The notes beneath the pieces were generated by a model. It saw nothing but the letters and a program-made list of their open reading frames with translations. It did no database searches and was not told the DNA's origin. This document shows positions 1 through 20,917 of a stretch of DNA of 21,553 bases, piece after piece. Every line of letters starts with the position of its first letter. Position 1 is the first letter of the stretch. Both the position numbers and the translations under genes were made by a program. The DNA is from a virus, in IMG/VR virus record IMGVR_UViG_3300028883_000147, positions 1 through 21,553 of that record. One strand, 5' to 3'.

Positions 1-1
1 T

Positions 2-1816
2 AAACCGAAGAAGGAGCCTTGCAGTGCCGCAGGGTTTCGGATCGGAGTAAACAATCAGGATTACCATCTAGGGTTCGAGGAAGCTAGGAACACTTACGAG
101 AGCGACCCTCAGACCTTCGCGGGAGTGGGGTTCGTGATCCCACCGGGAATGGTGGGTGTTGACCTGGATAACGTGAAAGATCGTCACGGCAATTGGAATC
201 TGGACGCACAACTGGTCCTTGCATCTCTCGATACTTATTGCGAGATCAGCCCGAGCGGGGAAGGTTTGAAGTTCCTCTGCTACGGGACGTTAGACGAGAA
301 GCTGAAGCGAGAGGACGCCTCTCGTGGCGTCGAAATGTTCGACGGAAAGGCTGCGAGGTTCTTCACGATTACAGGCCATGTCTTTGACGACGACCATCGT
401 GCAATGGGACATAGCCTGCGTGCCATTCATAACATCCAAGCCGCGATCTCTGACCCCATTACGAACCTAGAGTATGACGATATCGAAACAGGGGACCAAC
501 TGTACGAAGCGAGAGAGCTTGTTACTTGGGTTTCCGAGGACCAGATGGATGACTACGCCGCTTGGCTACGCCTCGGGATGGCACTCCATGCTGCCAGCGG
601 TGGGACCGAAGAAGGTCTTGCGTTATGGGATGAAGTGAGCCGCAAAAACACTAAGTACGAGGAAGGAGCTTGCGAAGCGAAGTGGGATTCATTCACAGGA
701 AGAAAAGCGAGACTGGTTACCATTGGATCACTTCGAGCAATGGCGAAGGAGAATGGATATCGACAGAACCAATACCGAACCCAAGCAGTTCCGGCGTCGG
801 ACTTCTGCCTCAAGGATATCCACAGGGAATACGTCGTCGAGAACTTCCTCGCAGACAACGAACCAATGGTAATCGGGGGAGCATCCAAGTCGTTGAAGAC
901 TACGGTCGCCCTCGACCTCGCGGTCTCGATTGCAACTGGGACTCCCTTTGCGGGACAGTTTAACGTCCCTACTCCTCGCAGGGTTCTCTTCGTCTCCGGT
1001 GAGTCCGGCGAAACTACGACGCAGGAAACGCTCAAACAAATTTGCAGAGGCAGGGAGATCGGGACTGACCAACTCAGCCAGTTGCATATCGGCTTCCACC
1101 TCCCAAAACTGGACGATGAAGATTGCGTTGACGACCTGATGAAAGAACTGAAAGAAAGGGAGATCGGTATCTGTGTGATCGACCCTCTCTACCGTTCACT
1201 TCGGGCAGGTAGCGATGCCTCGAACGTCTATTCAATGGGGGAGAAGCTAGAACTGATCGCGGAGAAACTTCACCGAGCGGGAGTCCTGTGCGTTCTGCTT
1301 CACCACTTCCGAAAGCAGGGACAGACCCACGAAGACCCACCAGAACTGGAAGAGTTAAGCCAATCCGGCATCGCAGAATTCGGGCGACAGTTTCTACTCC
1401 TGAAACGCCGCTCAACTTACAAGATGGACGGAAAGCACACTCTCTGGTTCTCTTGGGGAGGGTCAGCGGGACACCAAGGGTTAAAAATGCTCGAGTCCGA
1501 CACCGGGACATATCAGTCAGGGTTGACCTGGCAGACTGAATTGATATCGACGGTAGAGTGGGCAGAGAGGCAGAAGGAAGAGAAGAAGAACAAGTCCGAA
1601 GAGGAACTCGGAGAGAACTCTCAACAGGTGCTGAACTTCATCATAGCCAATCCGCAATGCACGACGAAAGAGATCATCGAAGCGACGGAGCTATCGAGGT
1701 ACAAGGTTGACAAAGCTGTTGCCAGACTGATCAGCGAAGAAATGGTCTCCGCTGAAAAGAACCCAGAAGACACCAATCCTAAATCACCGAAACTGCACCT
1801 TTACATTGGAGAGTAA
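2..1816 (+). CDS. Primase-polymerase / RecA-fold helicase replication protein (5' partial)
   Basis: This is a multidomain phage replication protein that probably primes and unwinds DNA. The frame is open to the left edge, so the true start lies outside the window; the first in-window start-like codon is GTG at 125, but homologous-looking sequence precedes it. Counting residues from that GTG, an AEP prim-pol-like domain spans about -40 to 110, with the metal-binding type motif VGVDLDNV (11-18), SPSGEGLKF (42-50) and ARFFTITG. A PriCT-2-like segment follows (about 131-212, with the pattern YAAWLRLGMALHA). A RepA/AAA_25-like ATPase then carries Walker A GGASKSLKTT (about 250-259), the downstream block RVLFVSGESGE, Walker B IGICVIDP (about 347-354) and a VLLHHFRK block. 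The C-terminus (about 500-555) looks like a winged helix. Domain assignments are from recalled family patterns; the order matches phage and plasmid primase-helicases. It is followed at once by a nucleotide kinase. Confidence 0.88.
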   Translation, partial: KPKKEPCSAAGFRIGVNNQDYHLGFEEARNTYESDPQTFAGVGFVIPPGMVGVDLDNVKDRHGNWNLDAQLVLASLDTYCEISPSGEGLKFLCYGTLDEKLKREDASRGVEMFDGKAARFFTITGHVFDDDHRAMGHSLRAIHNIQAAISDPITNLEYDDIETGDQLYEARELVTWVSEDQMDDYAAWLRLGMALHAASGGTEEGLALWDEVSRKNTKYEEGACEAKWDSFTGRKARLVTIGSLRAMAKENGYRQNQYRTQAVPASDFCLKDIHREYVVENFLADNEPMVIGGASKSLKTTVALDLAVSIATGTPFAGQFNVPTPRRVLFVSGESGETTTQETLKQICRGREIGTDQLSQLHIGFHLPKLDDEDCVDDLMKELKEREIGICVIDPLYRSLRAGSDASNVYSMGEKLELIAEKLHRAGVLCVLLHHFRKQGQTHEDPPELEELSQSGIAEFGRQFLLLKRRSTYKMDGKHTLWFSWGGSAGHQGLKMLESDTGTYQSGLTWQTELISTVEWAERQKEEKKNKSEEELGENSQQVLNFIIANPQCTTKEIIEATELSRYKVDKAVARLISEEMVSAEKNPEDTNPKSPKLHLYIGE

Positions 1817-1817
1817 G

Positions 1818-2327
1818 TTGAAACTGTTCATCGTGGGACCGGGAAGACACGGTAAAGATACGGTCGCTGAAATGATCCGAGGGAGACTTGGGTTAGAATT
1901 CATATCCTCCAGTGCCTTCGTCGCTGAAAAGGCTTGTCGACCTTGGCTGGAATCCAAATACGGGATCACATACCCGAGCCTTGAGGCTTGTTATGAGGAC
2001 CGGATAAATCATCGGCTCAAGTGGAGAGAAGCCATTGAGAACTATTGTGGGGATGACCTGCAAAGGATGTCGCGGGAAATGTTCGAAGAGTACGACATCT
2101 ATGTCGGGATTCGCCGGCGAGAAGAGTTCATCGCCTCAAAACACCTGGCGAATGTCTCCGTGTGGGTTGACGCATCGGAGCGGATCGACGAAAAAGACAG
2201 GTCGTTGGACATTCTTGAGTCCGACTGCGATGTCACGATAACTAACAACGAAGGCATCGAAGAACTGGCTATGAAGGTCCGGCTGTTATGCTGGGGATGG
2301 AGTCTCAGGTCTGAATGGGTTAAATGA
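1818..2327 (+). CDS. Deoxynucleoside monophosphate kinase-like P-loop protein
   Basis: This is a small P-loop kinase that probably phosphorylates dNMPs to feed phage DNA synthesis. It opens with MKLFIVGPGRHGKDTVAE, a Walker A loop (G7 to T15) of the GxxxxGKDT form typical of T4 gp1-type and other phage dNMP kinases. Later come YVGIRRREEF (a basic block resembling the LID or substrate region), VWVDAS, and a C-terminal CDVTITNNEG block that is usual in this group. I chose TTG at 1818, 169 aa, because GGAGAG at 1808-1813 sits just upstream and the start then follows the TAA of the replication gene without overlap; an in-frame TTG at 1806 is the alternative and would add four residues. It lies between the replication protein and the glycosyltransferase. 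Substrate specificity, including any modified nucleotide, cannot be read from the sequence. Confidence 0.75.
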   Translation: MKLFIVGPGRHGKDTVAEMIRGRLGLEFISSSAFVAEKACRPWLESKYGITYPSLEACYEDRINHRLKWREAIENYCGDDLQRMSREMFEEYDIYVGIRRREEFIASKHLANVSVWVDASERIDEKDRSLDILESDCDVTITNNEGIEELAMKVRLLCWGWSLRSEWVK

Positions 2328-2365
2328 AAGGTAAACTATGGACACTAACCAAACAGGAGCATTAA
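2324..2365 (+). other. Possible 13-codon micro-ORF bridging two genes
   Basis: ATG at 2324 overlaps the TGA of the kinase gene (ATGA) and opens a 13-residue frame (MKGKLWTLTKQEH) whose TAA at 2363-2365 abuts the ATG of the glycosyltransferase at 2366. It exactly fills the gap and could pass ribosomes from one gene to the next. It has no clear ribosome binding site of its own. A chance arrangement is quite possible; a second short frame starts at 2338. Confidence 0.2.
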
Positions 2366-3283
2366 ATGAGCATGACAGACTTTGAGTGGGAAAAAGAGTG
2401 GACAGGGATGCCTGCGTTCACCGTTCCAACCCGAGATACCAAGTTAAGAAACAGTATAGACGTAAGCGACACCGTGGCTTTGGCTAAAAAAAGCACAAGC
2501 AAGCAACCTAAGTATCCTGTGTATGTGATATCCAAAGGTAGATATGACCTTCAGAAAACCGCAGAAGCCTTAACGGGCTTGGGGGTCGAATATAAAGTAG
2601 TAGTTGAGAAAGGGGAATATGGCTTGTACGCAGAGAGATCAGACCCCAAAAAACTATTAAAACTGCCTTTCGATAATCTGGGTCAAGGGTCAATTCCTGC
2701 CCGAAATTGGGTATTGGACCACGCCCGAAACTCAGGACATAAAAGGCATTGGATACTTGATGATAATTTATCTGGGTTTGGGTATCAAAAAGGGGGACGG
2801 AGAATCAACACCAAGACAAACGGAGATATGTTTAGAGAATGCGAGGATTTTGTAGATAGGTATTCGAATGTCAGACTTGCAGGAATGAGGTATCGATTTC
2901 ACCATAATTACGTCAAGTCCCCTTTTTACTTGAACACCCGCATATATTCTTGCATACTCGTTGACAACTCCTTGCGTCACAGATGGAGAGGTAAATTCAA
3001 TGAGGACACTGACCTTAGCTTGCGGGTGTTAAAAGATGGGGATTGCACTATGTTGTTCACTTGGTGCTATTGTAACAAAGCTGCGAGCCTGAGCATGAAA
3101 GGGGGCAATACTGATACCGTGTACCGCGACACAGACGAACGGAAAGAGTTTGCGGAGAGTCTAAGGTCTCAACACCCTGATGTAGTTTCCGTTGTGAGGC
3201 GATACAACAGGTGGCATCATCAAGTAGACTATAGCGGATTCAGGCAAAACGCTTTATCCCCTCTCGACGAATTTGAAAGGTAA
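2366..3283 (+). CDS. TET-associated glycosyltransferase (TAGT)-like DNA glycosyltransferase
   Basis: This is a probable glycosyltransferase acting on modified bases in phage DNA. Of 305 aa, about 49-285 match the TAGT pattern as I recall it: YPVYVISKGRY (50-60), a conserved NLGQGSIPARNWV block (104-116), RHWILDDN with an acidic DDN (132-134, probable metal/nucleotide-sugar site), FNEDTDLSLR (211-220, second acidic cluster) and a NRWHHQVDY block (281-289). TAGTs are known partners of TET/JBP dioxygenases in phages and add sugars to 5-hydroxymethylcytosine. Residues 7-18 (WEKEWTGMPAF type) resemble the start of another phage domain that I recall beside such genes; this is a weak inference. AGGAG at 2355-2359 supports the ATG at 2366. 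Base use differs from its neighbours: three sampled 60-base lines are 40-43% GC, against 57-62% in two lines of the replication gene. No TET/JBP gene is in the window. A generic GT-A enzyme is the alternative. Confidence 0.82.
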   Translation: MSMTDFEWEKEWTGMPAFTVPTRDTKLRNSIDVSDTVALAKKSTSKQPKYPVYVISKGRYDLQKTAEALTGLGVEYKVVVEKGEYGLYAERSDPKKLLKLPFDNLGQGSIPARNWVLDHARNSGHKRHWILDDNLSGFGYQKGGRRINTKTNGDMFRECEDFVDRYSNVRLAGMRYRFHHNYVKSPFYLNTRIYSCILVDNSLRHRWRGKFNEDTDLSLRVLKDGDCTMLFTWCYCNKAASLSMKGGNTDTVYRDTDERKEFAESLRSQHPDVVSVVRRYNRWHHQVDYSGFRQNALSPLDEFER

Positions 3284-3294
3284 ACGGGTATAGT

Positions 3295-3963
3295 CTAAAG
3301 TCTCATAGGTTCCCAATAAGCATATTCGCCATCAAGCACTACCCCACATCCAATGGGAGGCTTGTTGGCGAATTTTCTTCCATACTGGAATTGCAACCGT
3401 TTCCAGTCGAGACCGCTTCCGGTCGAAAGACCGAAGAATCTCCGTTCCTCATTAGCTCCCCAGCGTACGCCCGCTGTTTGATGGTGATGCCCGATGACAG
3501 TAGACCTGCCTGAGTTGACCGCTTGCTTTAGAGCGGCTTCCATGCCCCCAGGTCCGGTCTCTCCGTGAGAGTATTTAACTCCGTCAATGAGGATGCTTCC
3601 GAACCTCTCGATAACTTTCCACTTCACTCCCCAGAAGTCCTGTTCGCTCTTGAGGATGTTCGAAGGCAATCCGGCGTCGTCTGCTCTGCGTTTCGGCAAG
3701 GCGTCGTGATTACCGACGAGCCAAGTAGCGACCGGGAACATCTCGTTGAGTCTCTCGATCTGCACTCTTGCCGCTTCGACTTCGGCTAAGACTCCCGGTG
3801 TCTCCGAGTGCTTACCGTGAAAGTTGATAGCGTGCCAGTCGATAACGTCGCCAATGAATACCACTGTGTTCAGGTTCCACTGGTCGTAGACATCTTTCAG
3901 GAAAGCGGGGTACTCATCGAGCATACCCGGACAGTGCAAATCTCCGATTGCGAGAACTCTCAT
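3295..3963 (-). CDS. Calcineurin-like metallophosphoesterase
   Basis: This 222 aa protein has the full two-metal phosphoesterase signature: GDLH (D8, H10), GDVID (D39, D42), GNHD (84-87), a lone H133 in YSHGET, and GHHH (158-161). All ligand positions of the calcineurin-like fold are present, so it is probably an active phosphatase, phosphodiesterase or nuclease; the substrate is not evident. It is the last gene of the long - strand unit, 14 bases after the beta-propeller gene, and ends 11 bases from the oppositely directed glycosyltransferase. No strong ribosome binding site precedes its ATG, so it may depend on read-through from the gene before it. Known phage members include lambda protein phosphatase-like and Mre11/SbcD-like enzymes; this one is short and has no extra nuclease cap domain that I can see. 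Confidence 0.88.
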   Translation of the reverse strand: MRVLAIGDLHCPGMLDEYPAFLKDVYDQWNLNTVVFIGDVIDWHAINFHGKHSETPGVLAEVEAARVQIERLNEMFPVATWLVGNHDALPKRRADDAGLPSNILKSEQDFWGVKWKVIERFGSILIDGVKYSHGETGPGGMEAALKQAVNSGRSTVIGHHHQTAGVRWGANEERRFFGLSTGSGLDWKRLQFQYGRKFANKPPIGCGVVLDGEYAYWEPMRL

Positions 3964-3977
3964 GCTGTGTTAGTCCG

Positions 3978-5240
3978 TTAGAGATTGTAGGGTTCAGTGT
4001 GTTCACCGCAGACGTAAATGCCATCGCTGCCAGCGGTGATCCGTGAGACCTGTGCATCGTTTGGGTTGTCAGTGAACGTCCAAGGTCGCTCCCATTCAAC
4101 CGCACCATTTGACGCCGCGAGTTTAATGACCTGAGTGTCACTGCTCGCATCGAGTCCGTTAGTGTAGACGTTTCCGCTGCTGTCAAACTCGATGTCCATA
4201 CGCCCATTGTTGAAGTTGTTGAAGGTGTATCCAGTTAAGGTCTTTCGCCATTTCAATCCCGATGAATTGAACACTGCGACACCGTGTAACGAATCAATCG
4301 CAGGTCTTGCAACCTCGCTCCCATCGCTTGACACTCGCATGGGTCCAACTTCCCAACGGTTGTACCCAAACCCAGTTGCGTACTGGTGCTCAGAGTACCA
4401 ATGTGCAGATGTCATGTCGCTAAGGTTAAACACCTCAACGTGCTCGTAAACCTTTGGGTCTGTCAGCGGATCGTCTACGTGGTTTGCAGTAATGGCTGCG
4501 TAGTCACCATTGACATCAAAGCCATTGTCGTAGGTATCAGTGGAAAGGTTTGTGTTTGTCAGAGTTAATTCAGAATCATACGTTTCTGTATCTAGGTCGA
4601 AAATACCCACTTTGCTTGCAGCGGCTGTTGTATCGTAAAACCAAATGACAATCTTGCCGTCGACGTTTGCCTGAGTGAAAGCGTACATTCTCTTTACCGA
4701 TGGCAGGTTGATTGTCTTGACAACAGTTGCATCAGTGTCAATCACTTGCAGGTAAGATGACGACGTTGCAAATGCCTCGCCTTGGATGTAATAGTCGCCC
4801 CATACAGCGACGTTGACATTTCTTCGAGTCACGTACGGCGTGCCAACAGCAACGCGAGTCGCCGTGTAGTCAGACTTAGAAACCACCAACCCGGACGAGC
4901 CTGTAAGCCAATAGTAATTTGTCCCCTCCAGTATCGCTGAATATGAACTGCCTCCAAAGTCGCCAGTAATGACTGGCTGTTCTTGAGTAGTTCCTGAGCT
5001 AACATCCAGAAACATCGCTGCGTATTTTAGACTATCGGTGTTTGACGCTAGGGACGCAAAACCTGAATGCAGAACGTGCAAGCCGTCGCTGGTTAGCATT
5101 AAATCGGAAGGCTTGAATGTGGCATTGTACTTGCAATCGTTAAACCAAATACGAGAACCATTGCTCGCATCCAGTTTCATAATCGAGTAACCTAGTGTAA
5201 CGATCCCCGGTTCTGGGCAGCAGCAACAGCGATCAACCAT
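3978..5240 (-). CDS. Predicted beta-propeller (PQQ-like repeat) virion or tail-tip protein
   Basis: This 420 aa protein is built of repeated short beta-strand units. Examples are SIMKLDASNGSRIWF near the N-terminus and VIKLAASNGAVEWER near the C-terminus, the same L-D/A-ASNG-x-x-W pattern found in PQQ/quinoprotein-type propeller blades. Other units contain SDG and SSGNVYTNG turns. This supports a beta-propeller and suggests a surface or binding role; no enzyme motif is visible. I chose ATG at 5240 because AAAGGAG lies seven bases upstream; a GTG at 5246 would be too close to that site. The N-terminus has four successive cysteines (CCCCPEP, residues 5-11), which is odd. It sits among the genes after the tape measure, so an adsorption or tail-tip job is inferred from position only. 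Confidence 0.6.
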   Translation of the reverse strand: MVDRCCCCPEPGIVTLGYSIMKLDASNGSRIWFNDCKYNATFKPSDLMLTSDGLHVLHSGFASLASNTDSLKYAAMFLDVSSGTTQEQPVITGDFGGSSYSAILEGTNYYWLTGSSGLVVSKSDYTATRVAVGTPYVTRRNVNVAVWGDYYIQGEAFATSSSYLQVIDTDATVVKTINLPSVKRMYAFTQANVDGKIVIWFYDTTAAASKVGIFDLDTETYDSELTLTNTNLSTDTYDNGFDVNGDYAAITANHVDDPLTDPKVYEHVEVFNLSDMTSAHWYSEHQYATGFGYNRWEVGPMRVSSDGSEVARPAIDSLHGVAVFNSSGLKWRKTLTGYTFNNFNNGRMDIEFDSSGNVYTNGLDASSDTQVIKLAASNGAVEWERPWTFTDNPNDAQVSRITAGSDGIYVCGEHTEPYNL

Positions 5241-5242
5241 TA

Positions 5243-5698
5243 TCACACTCCTTTGGAGAATCGACGCATTGCAGCATTGCCGGTTAGGCTAGTGTTATCG
5301 ACCGTTGGAAAGTTCACGTTAGTCAGACCGGCGATCGTGAATTCGACATACAATGCAACGTCTGGCCACGGTCCGCCGCTTACGGCAACTTCACCGGATG
5401 CAATCTCAGAATGACCCTCGAACGCTGTCTGAACTTCTGACGCAGTTGCATCCCAGTCCCAAGTAACATCTTCAGCAGTCCCGTTTACGTCATAATTCGC
5501 CGTGAACGTGCCTGCGGTTGTCGTTGTGTTCGTGTAGAATTCGTGAACCTCTGGGCATTCACACGCCCCTCCCCCACCGCCAGTTCCTCGATAGGGTCTG
5601 GGTCGAGGGGGCAATCGGGTATGCGGTCTGCCTTCGTTGGCTTTGACCGCATTAGCGACCCTTTTTGCTTCATCGTGAGTGAAGATGTACCCGGCCAT
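5243..5698 (-). CDS. Putative tail-associated structural protein with Gly-rich linker
   Basis: This 151 aa protein has three parts: a basic N-terminus with an HDEAKRVANAVKANEG helix, a proline/glycine linker (RLPPRPRP, then GTGGGGGACECPEV, about 28-50), and a beta-rich C-terminal domain (about 60-145). The C-terminal domain has the pattern TASEVQTAFEG...SGGPWPDVALYVEFT, which resembles a small repeat domain common in phage and surface proteins in which a helix of the AxxVQxAL type is followed by a GGPGP turn. AGAGG six bases upstream supports the ATG at 5698. The stop lies two bases before the ATG of the propeller gene. CECPEV here and CCCCPEP at the start of the next protein are similar cysteine clusters. 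Precise role unknown; placed in the tail/adsorption group by context. Confidence 0.6.
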   Translation of the reverse strand: MAGYIFTHDEAKRVANAVKANEGRPHTRLPPRPRPYRGTGGGGGACECPEVHEFYTNTTTTAGTFTANYDVNGTAEDVTWDWDATASEVQTAFEGHSEIASGEVAVSGGPWPDVALYVEFTIAGLTNVNFPTVDNTSLTGNAAMRRFSKGV

Positions 5699-6332: not shown

Positions 6333-7253
6333 TCAGGGTTTGGAGAAGAAGGGAAGTTCCGACCAGTCGGCTTCTTTATATAGATTGAATTCAAGCAACG
6401 TAGGGTCTGCGTCATCGGCAAGTGCTCCCCCTGCGGCATCAAGTTTCTTCGGGGTAGTGACTCTGACCTCATCTCTACCCTCTAGTCCGTCTTGCAACAC
6501 CCCATTAGCATCTTTCTCGAAGAAGTGGATTAAATCTGTTCCATCAAGGTATCTGAACCCCTCGTTAACTACGACGGTCTTCCACTTGTATTCTTCGTCG
6601 TGAGTGACGTGAACACTGACCATTGCCTCGTAGAACTGGAATCCGTTGTCCTCTGTTAGCTCAGTAATGGACATCGACTTTAGCAAGCCATACCCTGCGT
6701 CGATTACCAAGACGGTACTTCCGTTTGATATGATAACGGGTTTGGAATTCGTAGAGTTGACGTAGTTAGTCAGCCATGAAACTTGGTAGTTCGCGATGTT
6801 GACCTTCAGGTTCACGATTACGTCAGTGAAGTCCGTAGGAAGGGGTTCAATGGGGTCTCCCGCTTTGTTGACGAGAGGAGTTTCATCTCGGTCTTTCCAG
6901 ACGTACTTCTGCGTTTCCTGCGAGGACACGCTGATTCGCATCCTGCGGTCGATTGGATTCGGGTACTGCTGCCTCTCCCTCTCTTGAGTATTCACCGGCT
7001 CAGTTGACCAGACTACCCTGGCGGTCCAGTGCAGAGGGGATGCCGCTGTTAGGTCAATATCTCGGCGTGTATAGAACAGGCTGTCGGGATGGGGAGAGAT
7101 GAAGGAACCGACAACATCCTCGACAGCCTGCCTGACTTCAAAGTAACCATCATCTCTGCTATTCGTTCGGATCAGGTAGGTCTGTGTGATCCGGCTATGT
7201 TGACCGAGCGAACCACCTCTCTCCTGAAGCCTCTCCACTGAAGTTACACTCAC
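6333..7253 (-). CDS. Putative distal tail / tail-tip protein
   Basis: This 306 aa protein lies directly downstream of the tape measure, where siphoviruses encode distal tail or tip proteins. It starts with GTG in a GTGA overlap with the tape-measure stop, so translation is coupled. The sequence alternates charged and beta segments: an N-terminal QTYLIRT region, a central DFTDVIVNLKVNIANYQVSWLTNYVNS block, YEAMVSVHVTHDEEYKWKT, then VVNEGFRYLDG before a C-terminal tail ending DWSELPFFSKP. No catalytic motif is seen. I cannot match it to a named family such as Dit (lambda gpM-like); the role is inferred from gene order and the assignment to the tail is more certain than the specific part. Confidence 0.6.
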   Translation of the reverse strand: MSVTSVERLQERGGSLGQHSRITQTYLIRTNSRDDGYFEVRQAVEDVVGSFISPHPDSLFYTRRDIDLTAASPLHWTARVVWSTEPVNTQERERQQYPNPIDRRMRISVSSQETQKYVWKDRDETPLVNKAGDPIEPLPTDFTDVIVNLKVNIANYQVSWLTNYVNSTNSKPVIISNGSTVLVIDAGYGLLKSMSITELTEDNGFQFYEAMVSVHVTHDEEYKWKTVVVNEGFRYLDGTDLIHFFEKDANGVLQDGLEGRDEVRVTTPKKLDAAGGALADDADPTLLEFNLYKEADWSELPFFSKP

Positions 7254-8836
7254 GATAAAACTCCTCCGACTGTGACTTCGAGGCTAGTGCCTGACTCCAT
7301 TCTGTCTGCGATCCGGCTGAGAAGATCATTAGCCATTTTGGTATTTTCCGCAGACTTCTTGGTGTTGGATGCGGTTTCCTTCATCTCTTTCGCTTCCTTC
7401 TCTCTTTTGGCGTCTCGGGCTTTGGTGAACCTGTCGATGTCAGTTTCCCTGCTCCCTTCTGCCGCTCTTTTGGCATCTCGGGCTTTGGTGAACCTGTCGA
7501 TGTCAGTTTCGCCCCTCTCCCTGAACTTCCCTGAGAACCCTGACTTTTCTTTGTACTTCCCTCCGAAAGGGACCAGGGGTTCGTTGAGCAACTCTTCAGG
7601 AGTCTTCAACTCTCCCATCTCGGGGGCAATGGCTTTCTGGAAGGCTTTAGCGAACTCCTTTGATCCGTCGACAGACGATCTCAACTCCTGGTTGATTTGC
7701 CTTTGGAATTTCAGTGTCTCTTCCGCTGCGGTCTTCTGAGCCTCTTTGGCGATAGCGATCCTTCTTTCTGCCTCAAGCTGTTGATTGGTGAGGTCTTGTT
7801 GCATCCCCTCTGGTCGTAAATCCTCACGGATCGTTCTCAGGGTCGCGAGTTGCTTCTCGATGACCGCGAGTTTATCCTCTTCCGCTTTTATTTGGTCCTC
7901 GATCTGGGTCTTGTTTTTCTCGGCTAAGGATAAACGGAAAGTTTCCATTTCTCCGGTCCGTTTGATCATAGCGGCGTTAGCCTCTGTGATCTTCTTGTCC
8001 TTCTCCCTTCTCGCTTGAGTCTCTTCGTCGTGCTTTGCCATATCCTCAGCCCACTTCAGCATCTCTTGCTGCTTTTCGAGCTTAGCCTCTGTTTCAGCAC
8101 GCTCTTTTTTTATTGCCTCAATCCTTTTCTTTTCAAGTTCCACTTCTGCGCTGAGTCTCTGAGAATGCTTTTCCTCTACCGCTTTTCTTCCTCTTCCTTT
8201 GCTTACTGCCCCTGTCTCCAAGGTCGCTTCGGCTACGGCGGCTCTCGCTTTAGCTTCTTCCATTAGCTCGGCTTTTACTTTCCTCCTTAGCTCTAAGTTC
8301 TTCTCTAAATACTTGAGCACTGACTTTTCAGAGTCGATCTGTTCTTTCAAGCCATCTATCGCAGCCTTCCTCTGCTCGATAGTCCCATCCAGTATCCTTC
8401 GGTTAAAGTTGTGGATGGTCTCCTGCTGTCGCATACCCTCTTTGAGACCTTTGACATAATCGTCGAGCAGTTTCTTAGCCTTCTCGGCAGCTTTATCCGC
8501 TGACTCACCAAACAGGTCCAATGCCAGGGCAAGTTGTAGGGTTGCCGCTGCTGCGACACCGAAAGCAGTCATCCAAGGACCGCCGACAGCCATCAACATC
8601 ATCGTCATGTTGTTAGAGGCGGCTCTCACTGCTCCTGCGAGACCTCCAGTACCTACCGTGGATGCAACGTCCTCAACACCGAAGATCGCGTTCTGAGTGA
8701 ACTGTCTCCAGTCTCTCCGCGATCTTCGGACGGTCTTGGCTTGTGCCTCCAGTTTTTTATTGACGATCTCAATCGACCTGATGAGGTCGCCATGATCCCC
8801 CATGAACCGAGTCGAGATATCAACTTTAGTAGCCAT
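7250..8836 (-). CDS. Tail tape measure protein
   Basis: This 528 aa protein is placed just after the G/GT chaperone pair, as tape measure proteins are in siphoviruses. It has a short N-terminal region, a hydrophobic stretch at about 78-108 (rich in M, A, L and V, including GGPWMTAFGVAAAATLQL) that could cross a membrane during DNA ejection, and then a long, highly charged Lys/Glu heptad-like coiled coil from about 110 to 380 (runs such as AEKAKKLLDDYVKGLKEG). Near the C-terminus the 15-residue unit ETDIDRFTKARDAKR occurs twice. Its length is at the short end for tape measures; with the usual rule of about 0.15 nm per residue it predicts a tail of roughly 80 nm. ATG at 8836 follows the frameshift-extension stop by two bases. 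Confidence 0.82.
   Translation of the reverse strand: MATKVDISTRFMGDHGDLIRSIEIVNKKLEAQAKTVRRSRRDWRQFTQNAIFGVEDVASTVGTGGLAGAVRAASNNMTMMLMAVGGPWMTAFGVAAAATLQLALALDLFGESADKAAEKAKKLLDDYVKGLKEGMRQQETIHNFNRRILDGTIEQRKAAIDGLKEQIDSEKSVLKYLEKNLELRRKVKAELMEEAKARAAVAEATLETGAVSKGRGRKAVEEKHSQRLSAEVELEKKRIEAIKKERAETEAKLEKQQEMLKWAEDMAKHDEETQARREKDKKITEANAAMIKRTGEMETFRLSLAEKNKTQIEDQIKAEEDKLAVIEKQLATLRTIREDLRPEGMQQDLTNQQLEAERRIAIAKEAQKTAAEETLKFQRQINQELRSSVDGSKEFAKAFQKAIAPEMGELKTPEELLNEPLVPFGGKYKEKSGFSGKFRERGETDIDRFTKARDAKRAAEGSRETDIDRFTKARDAKREKEAKEMKETASNTKKSAENTKMANDLLSRIADRMESGTSLEVTVGGVLS
7402..7510 (-). repeat. Tandem direct repeat inside the tape measure gene
   Basis: Two copies of a 46-base unit lie at 7402-7447 and 7465-7510, offset by 63 bases (21 codons), with one mismatch seen (GTCTCG versus ATCTCG on the + strand). 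Each encodes ETDIDRFTKARDAKR. The in-frame period means copy number can change without breaking the reading frame. Confidence 0.9.
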
Positions 8837-18874: not shown

Positions 18875-19206
18875 CTTCCGTATCCTCCCATGTCTTGAAC
18901 AGTCTTCTTGCTGTGATGTGGTTTGCACATAGTCTGTAAGTTGTCCTCATCGAAGAAAACCTCTGGTCTACCTCGGTGAGGGGTTATGTGATCCACAATC
19001 GCCACTTTAGGTATACATTCTAAAGTCGGCTTTCCTTCCTTTCTGCACTCGACGCAAAACGGATGTTTAGCCAAGTGTTTTAATCTCAGCCCATGTTTGC
19101 CCTTCCACTGTGCGGTATTGTAGAGAGGGTGTCCAGGTTTACTGGTCCCTCTCTTGCGGTGCAGGCTTCTCGCCTTCGATCCGTGTGTCCTCGCTGCTTT
19201 AGGCAT
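18871..19206 (-). CDS. HNH endonuclease (terminase-associated)
   Basis: This 111 aa protein has an HNH/zinc-type nuclease signature: CVEC (C51, C54), VDHITPH (D72, H73 and H77), an asparagine in DEDNLQTMC (N89), and CKPHH (C94, H97, H98). The N-terminus is basic (RSLHRKRG). HNH genes directly before terS are known in HK97-like phages, where gp74 is needed with the terminase for cos cleavage. It begins eight bases inside the end of the tail-fibre gene (ATGCCTAA) and ends in ATGA with terS. A homing endonuclease is less likely because the gene is coupled on both sides to packaging genes. Confidence 0.9.
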   Translation of the reverse strand: MPKAARTHGSKARSLHRKRGTSKPGHPLYNTAQWKGKHGLRLKHLAKHPFCVECRKEGKPTLECIPKVAIVDHITPHRGRPEVFFDEDNLQTMCKPHHSKKTVQDMGGYGR

Positions 19207-20917
19207 CTTGGTCCGCTGCCTCCAATACTCTGATGTTTCCTCGGGCTAACACTCGGTCCCCATCTGCGGTGTCTCTCAACGCCCACCGAAGAACCCCTGC
19301 TGTCGCAGTCACTGCCGCAGAGTTCGTAAACGTGACCTGATTGTTGCCGGCTCCTCCTACTGAGATGCTTCCCGAGCTAATGACCTGTACGTCAGTGTGT
19401 CCTGACCGTCCTCTGTCGATAACTATCTGTAGGGTCTTAGCTGAGACATCAAGTGCCGCCCCTGAAGAGTCTGTAATTGCAATCGTAGTCGCAATCGTCT
19501 CCCCTATAAAGTAGGCGATGTCCGTTCCATTCACCCTCGTTATCTCAGATGCACTGAGAGGGGTTATGATCGCGTCTCCTGTTACTGATCCAGTTATCCA
19601 TCCTGCATCACCACGGTCTCTGATTGCTTCCTGCGAGTCCGTAGTGTTATTGAAGCTCGCCCCTGCTGTCGTAGCGTTGACTTCTGTTAGAGTGGAAGCG
19701 TCTGCGGTTTTACCTGCGATGATTCCAAGCCATGATGCGAGTCGCGTGATGCCAGAGAACCAATATCCGAACGATCCAACAGAGACATGCCCTGACATCG
19801 CCTCGTCCCACACAGCGTCCGCCACTGCTCCTGCCGTTGGGGCAGAAGCGTTTGACAATGACTCCGCTGTACTGCCAACCGTTCCTGAATGATCTGCAAT
19901 CGCTTCAGTCCAAACGGCATCTGCGACCTGTGCCGCTGTCGGTGCTGTCCCTGCCTCAATCGCTGCAATGTCCGCTGAAACGCTTGCACCCGCTGGAGCA
20001 CCAAGCCTTGCATAACTGTCACCAGTCTGCACCGTGTGACCAGTGAGCGCATTGACAGTGCCAATCGTCACCCCGCTTTGATCTGCCGCAAGGCTGACGG
20101 TATCTGTTGAAGCATCAAAGTACGCACTTGACAACAGCGTCCTTGCGTTGAACTCCGACACCGTTGGAATATCGCCAAGTTGAGTATCAAGATTCGCAGA
20201 AGCCAGCCCGACCGCTGCCCGAACACCCGACGCATCAAGACCGCCACCGCCGCTAAGTGCATTGGCATCGACCTGATTGGCAACTGTGAACACGAACTGA
20301 TCCGTCTTCGCCTTGATTGCATCAACATTCGAATCGACAGTTGCGAGTCCTGCCGAGGTAGCAAGGCCGGTTCCGTCGATGTCATTCAGAGCATCAAGAG
20401 TTGTCTTAGTCCCTGAGATTGAATACCCAGTTTTGTCGTTGTTGGTTCCAACTGTGACTAGACCACTTGAAAGGCTTAACTGCCCTGTGCCTGTCCCTGA
20501 CGACAGCAGAACGCTTGCCCCGATGTCGCGAGCGGTTTGTGATGTCCCGCCAAGTTGCACCGTATTAACTGGGGTCTCCAGTTTCAGCCTGATTGCCTTA
20601 TCTAGTGTTCCTGTTGCCTGTAAACTAACCGTGACCGCTGCAACGCCAGTTGAAATTGCTGCATTAGGCAGGTGCAGTTGATACAGCCCCTTTTGGTTGG
20701 TTGCATCAACTTCCGCCCACTTGCCGGACGAGTACGCATCTCCTGCCGTTCCGCTAGCGAGTGTGATGGCAACCCTCGTTCCGCCTTCACGGACATACGA
20801 CGCTGTGACATCGCCAAACGCAAGTCCAGTCTTACCGCCACCAGTAGTCGAGTCGCGAAGCATGACTTCAATGATCTTCGAAGTGGTTCCGCCAGTGAGT
20901 GATTCATCAAACGCCAT
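19199..20917 (-). CDS. Tail-fibre-like structural protein
   Basis: This 572 aa protein is low in charge and rich in Ala, Thr, Ser, Gly and Val. Its N-terminal portion (about 1-115: IIEVMLRDSTTGGGKTGL, then AEVDATNQKGLYQLHLPN) is a pattern I recall from phage fibre and tail proteins. Two copies of the repeat ADAVWxEA occur at about 328-335 and 362-369, spaced by about 34 residues. The C-terminal part has a beta-sandwich-like pattern (AKTLQIVIDRG and TFTNSAAVTATAGVLRWAL). No enzyme motif is seen. GAGGA nine bases upstream supports the ATG. A fibre, baseplate or head-fibre role is inferred. Its place before HNH and terS is away from the other tail genes. Confidence 0.6.
   Translation of the reverse strand: MAFDESLTGGTTSKIIEVMLRDSTTGGGKTGLAFGDVTASYVREGGTRVAITLASGTAGDAYSSGKWAEVDATNQKGLYQLHLPNAAISTGVAAVTVSLQATGTLDKAIRLKLETPVNTVQLGGTSQTARDIGASVLLSSGTGTGQLSLSSGLVTVGTNNDKTGYSISGTKTTLDALNDIDGTGLATSAGLATVDSNVDAIKAKTDQFVFTVANQVDANALSGGGGLDASGVRAAVGLASANLDTQLGDIPTVSEFNARTLLSSAYFDASTDTVSLAADQSGVTIGTVNALTGHTVQTGDSYARLGAPAGASVSADIAAIEAGTAPTAAQVADAVWTEAIADHSGTVGSTAESLSNASAPTAGAVADAVWDEAMSGHVSVGSFGYWFSGITRLASWLGIIAGKTADASTLTEVNATTAGASFNNTTDSQEAIRDRGDAGWITGSVTGDAIITPLSASEITRVNGTDIAYFIGETIATTIAITDSSGAALDVSAKTLQIVIDRGRSGHTDVQVISSGSISVGGAGNNQVTFTNSAAVTATAGVLRWALRDTADGDRVLARGNIRVLEAADQDA

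Follow-up and report, generated by a model that had tools for sequence, protein, structure and literature searches.

A gene of the TET-associated glycosyltransferase (TAGT) family, in a fragment of a phage genome, belongs to a branch of the family that is accompanied by a small partner domain, which we call the W-domain, and in which we find no TET dioxygenase. The enzyme is probably an early DNA glycosyltransferase that uses a UDP-sugar as its donor and has a DNA base as its candidate acceptor. (The TAGT family was reportedly defined by Iyer in 2013.) The gene lies in what we will call the window, which is the whole stretch of 21,553 nucleotides that we analyzed; it takes in all of a linear 21.5-kb IMG/VR entry. 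The features of the window, and of the related loci that are discussed below, are listed in Table 1.

Table 1. Positions of features in the window and, where an L number is given, in other loci
Feature	Position	Strand	Evidence or remark
Primase (PriCT_2) / AAA_25 helicase, with C-terminal winged helix	2-1816	+	Profile matches; gene start is outside the record
P-loop (GPGRHGKDT) dNMP-kinase-like protein, 173 aa	1806-2327	+	phrog_38514, 99 bits; phrog_139 (dNMP kinase), 38 bits
AGGAG ribosome-binding site	2355-2359	+	6 nt before the ATG of 2366-3283
TAGT-family (PF20691) GT-A glycosyltransferase, 305 aa	2366-3283	+	Pfam, predicted fold, PDB fold matches
W12-x-x-M-P-x-F18, apparent remnant of the W-domain start, fused to the transferase	2399-2419	+	Alignment, weak HMM match
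Pfam TAGT domain, residues 50-247	2513-3106	+	PF20691 profile match
Motif NLGQGSIPARNWV, residues 104-116	2675-2713	+	P111, R113, and N114 invariant in alignment
DDN (D132-D133-N134), DxD-like metal/nucleotide-sugar motif	2759-2767	+	Invariant in alignment
N212-E213-D214 of FNEDTDL	2999-3007	+	N212 and D214 invariant, E213 nearly so
H285, near the C-terminus	3218-3220	+	Invariant in alignment
ParB_N-W-domain fusions	L012:7204-7842, L080:8917-9999, L114:5611-6204
W-domain, apparently duplicated and fused to TAGT	L139:5626-7128
UXS1-like UDP-xylose synthase beside TAGT/W-domain genes	L017:8177-9106, L061:1321-2250, L016:11196-12131		Structure-sequence matches

A TAGT enzyme with a predicted GT-A fold

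The open reading frame at 2366-3283 on the plus strand (ATG start, 305 codons) matches the Pfam family TAGT (PF20691) across the entire profile (positions 1-205 of 205), with a score of 124.7 bits (E = 6.1e-36). This is above the family's curated cut-off of 27.5 bits. It also matches PHROG 842, "beta-glucosyl-HMC-alpha-glucosyltransferase," with 149 bits. We found at least 107 relatives in IMG/VR, of which 80 were kept. A search of phage isolates with positions 1-4200 of the window as a DNA query gave zero matches, and sequence searches of the PDB with the protein or with profiles of the family gave chance matches only.

The initial annotation had identified the product as a TAGT-type glycosyltransferase from the motifs NLGQGSIPARNWV, DDN, and FNEDTDLSLR, and had proposed a search with the family's HMM, whose result is given above. 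The three motifs are present where they were reported (FNEDTDLSLR starts at F211, nt 2996), and all are conserved among 37 relatives. In the alignment of these 37 relatives, the columns for D132, D133, N134, N212, D214, and H285 are invariant, and the column for E213 is nearly so. N212-E213-D214 is likely to be the catalytic region.

The AlphaFold (AF2) model of the enzyme has a mean pLDDT of 91.7 and a pTM of 0.91. When we compared the model to the PDB with Foldseek, the best match was GnT-I (E = 3.6e-6), and further matches included ColGalT1, TarP, and heparosan synthase, at around 10% identity. The predicted structure is that of a GT-A nucleotide-sugar glycosyltransferase with a DxD-type motif, and together with the full-length profile match, it bears out the initial identification. 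Residues 1-45 were modelled as short helices, whose placement is confident from about residue 11 onwards.

In the window, TAGT comes third in an early operon on the plus strand, after the gene for the primase/helicase and the gene for the dNMP-kinase-like protein. In marine T4-like phages, TAGT adjoins the gene for a family-B DNA polymerase. (Relatives of the dNMP-kinase-like protein are annotated as dNMP kinase, as MazG-like, or as thymidylate synthase. The thymidylate synthase labels are from roseophages and likely reflect fusions; other relatives adjoin MazG-like genes.)

The W-domain is a conserved partner of TAGT

When we clustered the genes around TAGT, one family was common to 71 of the 87 loci. 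This is the W-domain, which is found in proteins or segments of about 80-110 amino acids (the domain itself is about 80) with the pattern "W..MPEF...TKSIWYP". The domain starts with W-x2-MP-[ED]-F, which is followed by a strand-helix stretch like IxVxFxxxEDxxxFAxLxxQ and then by T-x-KTKSIWYP. It has no match among the Pfam, PHROG, or NCBIfam families.

The arrangement of the two genes varies. In marine T4-like phages the W-domain gene follows TAGT, and in others it precedes TAGT. Phages 65, POP12, 1.124.O, 1.076.O, and Kuja, as well as L017, have a fusion protein in which the W-domain is N-terminal to TAGT. In many phages the W-domain is instead fused behind a ParB_N domain (PF02195, E = 2.1e-19), and the ParB_N part of these fusions resembles phage ParB/DNA-methyltransferase proteins (phrog_498).

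By profile search, the W-domain is near or fused to TAGT in 78/81 loci that were found with TAGT as the query, a count that takes in near-identical loci and loci L003-L005, which have a weak partial match only. The loci without it are the window, L002, and L067, which is at a contig end. In the reverse test, with the W-domain as the query, TAGT was on the same strand (upstream, downstream, or fused) in all 78 of the loci that were tabulated. These loci came from the best 80 of at least 468 matches in the collection, so the sample leans towards copies that resemble the query. One W-domain locus, L161, has no TAGT within the stretch at hand. Using the W-domain of phage 65 as the query, we found eight phage records, all of which carry TAGT; tblastn against phage isolates with one stand-alone W-domain as the query returned nothing. 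Because the gene orders and the fusions vary across the tree, we argue that the association reflects a functional link between TAGT and the W-domain, and not the common descent of a single block of genes.

The predicted structure of the W-domain alone (pLDDT 78, pTM 0.47) has no match in the PDB. Since this model is weak, it is the association with TAGT that points to a role for the domain. As a partner of TAGT, the W-domain appears to be undescribed: we found no description of it in the literature that we searched, which did not take in the founding paper of 2013. Literature searches on ParB turned up nothing relevant to phage DNA glycosylation.

The window's enzyme may retain the start of a W-domain

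In a phylogenetic tree, the window's enzyme forms one clade with those of L002, L003, and L004 (support 100/100). This clade adjoins L006, L007, and L110, which have a separate W-domain gene, and the 44-row branch that holds all of them has support of 81/92. The phylogeny therefore places the window's enzyme within the W-domain-partnered branch of TAGT.

No complete W-domain is adjacent or fused to the window's TAGT, and searches of the remainder of the window and of the 110-kb relative found none. But the N-terminus of the enzyme, FEWEKEWTGMPAF, is similar to the first part of L007's W-domain, NEWEKEWHSMPEF, and it has a weak match (13.8 bits) to positions 10-27 of the W-domain HMM. A short PTRDTxKRN segment stands in place of the remaining W-domain. 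Judging from these similarities, the N-terminus looks like a trimmed W-domain that is fused to the enzyme.

TET was not found, and hydroxymethylase-family genes are rare, in the records tested from this branch

The initial annotation had also proposed that the enzyme acts on 5-hydroxymethylcytosine (5hmC) made by a phage TET/JBP enzyme or, alternatively, on a base made in another way. We searched for Tet_JBP (PF12851) in 67 records with this type of TAGT (50 IMG/VR records that carry a related TAGT, 12 more, and five isolates), and there were no hits in any of them. Most of the contigs that we tested for pathway enzymes are fragments, but the 67 include the 110-kb contig of L002 and two 47-kb genomes of Vibrio/Shewanella isolates. 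The same search finds the TET of Nonlabens phage P12024L, our positive control, with E = 2.8e-29. The family, the predicted fold, and DNA as the likely target all stand, and so does the alternative of a base made in another way, while a TET/5hmC pathway is not supported for this branch.

It could still be that a TET/JBP dioxygenase and a methylase are encoded in the unsequenced part of the genome and make the 5hmC that TAGT then glycosylates. The name of the family suggests this, TET, TAGT, and a methyltransferase are consecutive in the operon of P12024L, and the window is a fragment (the sister phage described below has a genome of 38 kb). We nevertheless consider this very unlikely, given the result for the 67 records and for the nearest relative's 110-kb contig among them. 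Also, 32 phage records were positive for TET and 24 for TAGT, and P12024L is the only one in both sets. When we searched viral contigs for further TET-linked TAGTs, P12024L itself came back, along with two close relatives and nothing else. The TAGT of P12024L is in the same Pfam and PHROG families as the window's enzyme (PF20691, 76 bits), but it adjoins TET and a DNA methyltransferase, has no W-domain, and is a remote outgroup on a separate branch of the tree.

The thymidylate-synthase/hydroxymethylase family (PF00303; TS-family) was found in 5/67 records: one of the 50 (a short match), one of the 12 (whose genome is 364 kb), and three large-genome isolates. Among the isolates, Kuja's gene is annotated as thymidylate synthase (thyA). 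As a control, this search detected gp42 of phage T6 (56 bits), which is about 70 nt from T6's TAGT. Alpha-glucosyltransferase (PF11440) was found in 0/48 records with this type of TAGT (control: T6, E = 5.6e-260), and C5 cytosine methyltransferase was found in 2/48, both partial matches. The isolates 1.124.O and 1.076.O, whose records (47 kb apiece) are marked as partial genomes, contain TAGT without TET, the TS-family, or alpha-glucosyltransferase.

Modification before replication is another route by which the acceptor could arise. A dCMP or dUMP hydroxymethylase of the TS-family, or a hydroxylase, would be encoded in the missing part of the genome; the neighboring dNMP kinase would phosphorylate the modified dNMP that it makes, the DNA polymerase would insert it, and TAGT would then add the sugar. 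T6 and, with hydroxycytosine, RB69 are precedents for this route, the TAGT gene of T6 adjoins gp42, and the window's dNMP-kinase-like gene ends just 38 nt upstream of TAGT. But this kinase is not recurrent among the neighbors of TAGT, and phages whose DNA is normal often have a dNMP kinase too. Also, a search that detects gp42 of T6 found TS-family genes in only 5/67 records, one of which is annotated as an ordinary thyA. We think that this route is unlikely.

The closest relative of the window's enzyme is from L002 (72% identity). Among the larger ORFs of the L002 contig, a Pfam scan (with 25 of 34 families listed for one half) recognized no base-hydroxylating enzyme; it did identify many NAD/ADP-ribose functions and a radical-SAM protein. 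The 110-kb contig IMGVR_UViG_3300025237_000002 (L089-L094) is rich in NAD/ADP-ribose and RNA-repair functions: it encodes Sir2, Macro, ADP-ribosylglycohydrolase, NADAR, NAPRTase, KptA, Thg1, and 2'-5' RNA ligase. It further encodes a glutamate-synthase domain, an M42 peptidase, and a Rieske protein.

The sugar donor

In nine loci from several branches, a UDP-xylose synthase (UDP-glucuronate decarboxylase, with the signature ACPASP) is encoded 1-3 genes from TAGT and on the same strand. The proteins from L017, L061, and L016 match structures of human UXS1 with E values of 1e-91 to 1e-126 (best 1.6e-126), and the next family is at 1e-44. UDP-glucose dehydrogenase is encoded near TAGT in many T4-like loci. 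Because both enzymes are nearby, UDP-xylose is the likely donor in the lineages with an adjacent UDP-xylose synthase. Neither gene was found in the 21.5-kb window.

Other sugar genes are also present in the neighborhoods of marine T4-like phages, which raises the question of whether TAGT modifies something other than phage DNA, such as tRNA, a host or virion protein, or a surface glycan. The nearest solved folds (GnT-I, ColGalT1, and TarP) do act on proteins or glycans, albeit at only about 10% identity, and no base-hydroxylating enzyme was recognized. On the other hand, TAGT is found in replication or early-gene contexts in unrelated phages, the W-domain is fused to ParB_N domains like those of ParB-DNA-methyltransferase proteins, and the TAGT of T2 and T6 acts on DNA (PMC13216743). 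A target other than phage DNA seems quite unlikely to us.

Comparison to known systems

The TAGT of T2 and T6 places a second glucose on alpha-glucosyl-hmC (PMC13216743; also PMC13390438), and an AlphaFold3 model of the T6 enzyme has the GT-A fold (PMC13216743). Like the window's enzyme, these proteins belong to PF20691 and have an acidic DxD-type motif (DDD in T6 and DDN in the window). But T6's TAGT is very remote in sequence, with 39 bits to the Pfam model and E of about 1 to a profile of the window's branch. Its gene is beside gp42, and it works with hmC and an alpha-glucosyltransferase, both of which are mostly absent in the window's branch.

Closer relatives are found in Aeromonas phages Aeh1 and 65 and in Vibrio phages 1.124.O, 1.076.O, and Kuja, whose TAGTs are 39-44% identical to the window's and belong to the same branch. 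Where phages 65, 1.124.O, 1.076.O, and Kuja have an N-terminal W-domain, the window's enzyme has its first residues only. The TAGT gene of Aeh1 has been listed as "presumably modifies DNA, unknown base" (PMC8056088, after Iyer 2013), and gene 42 is absent from both Aeh1 and 65 (PMC2993671).

RB69-like phages and Thanatos have pentosyl cytosines with a direct oxygen linkage, and their genomes contain a TS-family gene that is thought to be involved (PMC13390438, PMC12838424). These phages (RB69/Mosigvirus and Thanatos) resemble part of the window's branch in having a DNA pentose without TET, if the UDP-xylose synthase genes do indicate a pentose. They differ in having a TS-family gene, which most of our TAGT records lack, and other candidate transferases.

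TAGT without a T-even alpha- or beta-glucosyltransferase, and with no known substrate, was reported in 288/753 phage genomes (PMC13216743). Solitary TAGTs were thus already noted in 2026, and it is the partner domain that appears to be new. The links to the W-domain, ParB, and UDP-xylose synthase, along with the absence of TET and alpha-glucosyltransferase and the rarity of hydroxymethylase-family genes, turn the puzzle of the solitary TAGTs into a defined hypothesis that is open to testing with Vibrio and Aeromonas phages in culture.

Proposed mechanism

We propose that the DDN motif binds the UDP-sugar along with a metal (metal dependence is probable, given the DDN) and that E213/D214 or a neighboring residue is the catalytic base. 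The sugar would be moved from the UDP-sugar onto a base of the phage's DNA; where UDP-xylose synthase adjoins TAGT, it would come from UDP-xylose. The acceptor would not arise from a phage TET acting on 5-methylcytosine nor, in most members, from a phage-encoded dCMP hydroxymethylase. The W-domain, plus ParB_N where present, would recruit the transferase onto the DNA. The four members of the window's clade would have kept just the W-MP-F start of the W-domain, as a fusion to the enzyme. The glycosylated base could shield the phage's DNA from restriction.

Petrov 2010 reported that some relatives of T4 that lack gene 42 have DNA that is cut by type II enzymes to which T4 DNA is resistant (PMC2993671). 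This speaks against a wholesale modification of cytosine in at least some of these relatives. A more speculative extension of our proposal, which is possible but which we would not bet on, is that TAGT and the W-domain (with or without ParB_N) are a self-contained module for DNA glycosylation that operates without phage-made hydroxymethylated cytosine. The W-domain or ParB would load the transferase onto DNA or guide it there. The sugar attached would be a pentose, in several lineages xylose, and its acceptor would be either a canonical base or one that the host has modified. If true, the result would be a new type of modification of phage DNA, one that has not yet been described.

TAGT is an accessory gene in this phage lineage

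Facing TAGT in the window is a minus-strand module that encodes a metallophosphoesterase, an HK97-type major head protein, an S49 protease, portal, terminases, and HNH. Three ORFs in or beside this structural module (3981-5246, 7253-8836, and 19202-20917) have no match in the Pfam and PHROG libraries that we tried.

The 38.25-kb contig IMGVR_UViG_3300025687_000129 (L215-L216) is from a sister phage, whose terminase is 75% identical to the window's. The contig is apparently a whole genome, as both of its ends fall between the genes for the terminase small subunit and HNH. TAGT was not found in this apparently whole genome, so it is an accessory gene in this lineage. The two phages have the structural module in common, and their early regions are unrelated: the sister phage's early region encodes an N6/N4 DNA methyltransferase and a PAPS-reductase-like protein.
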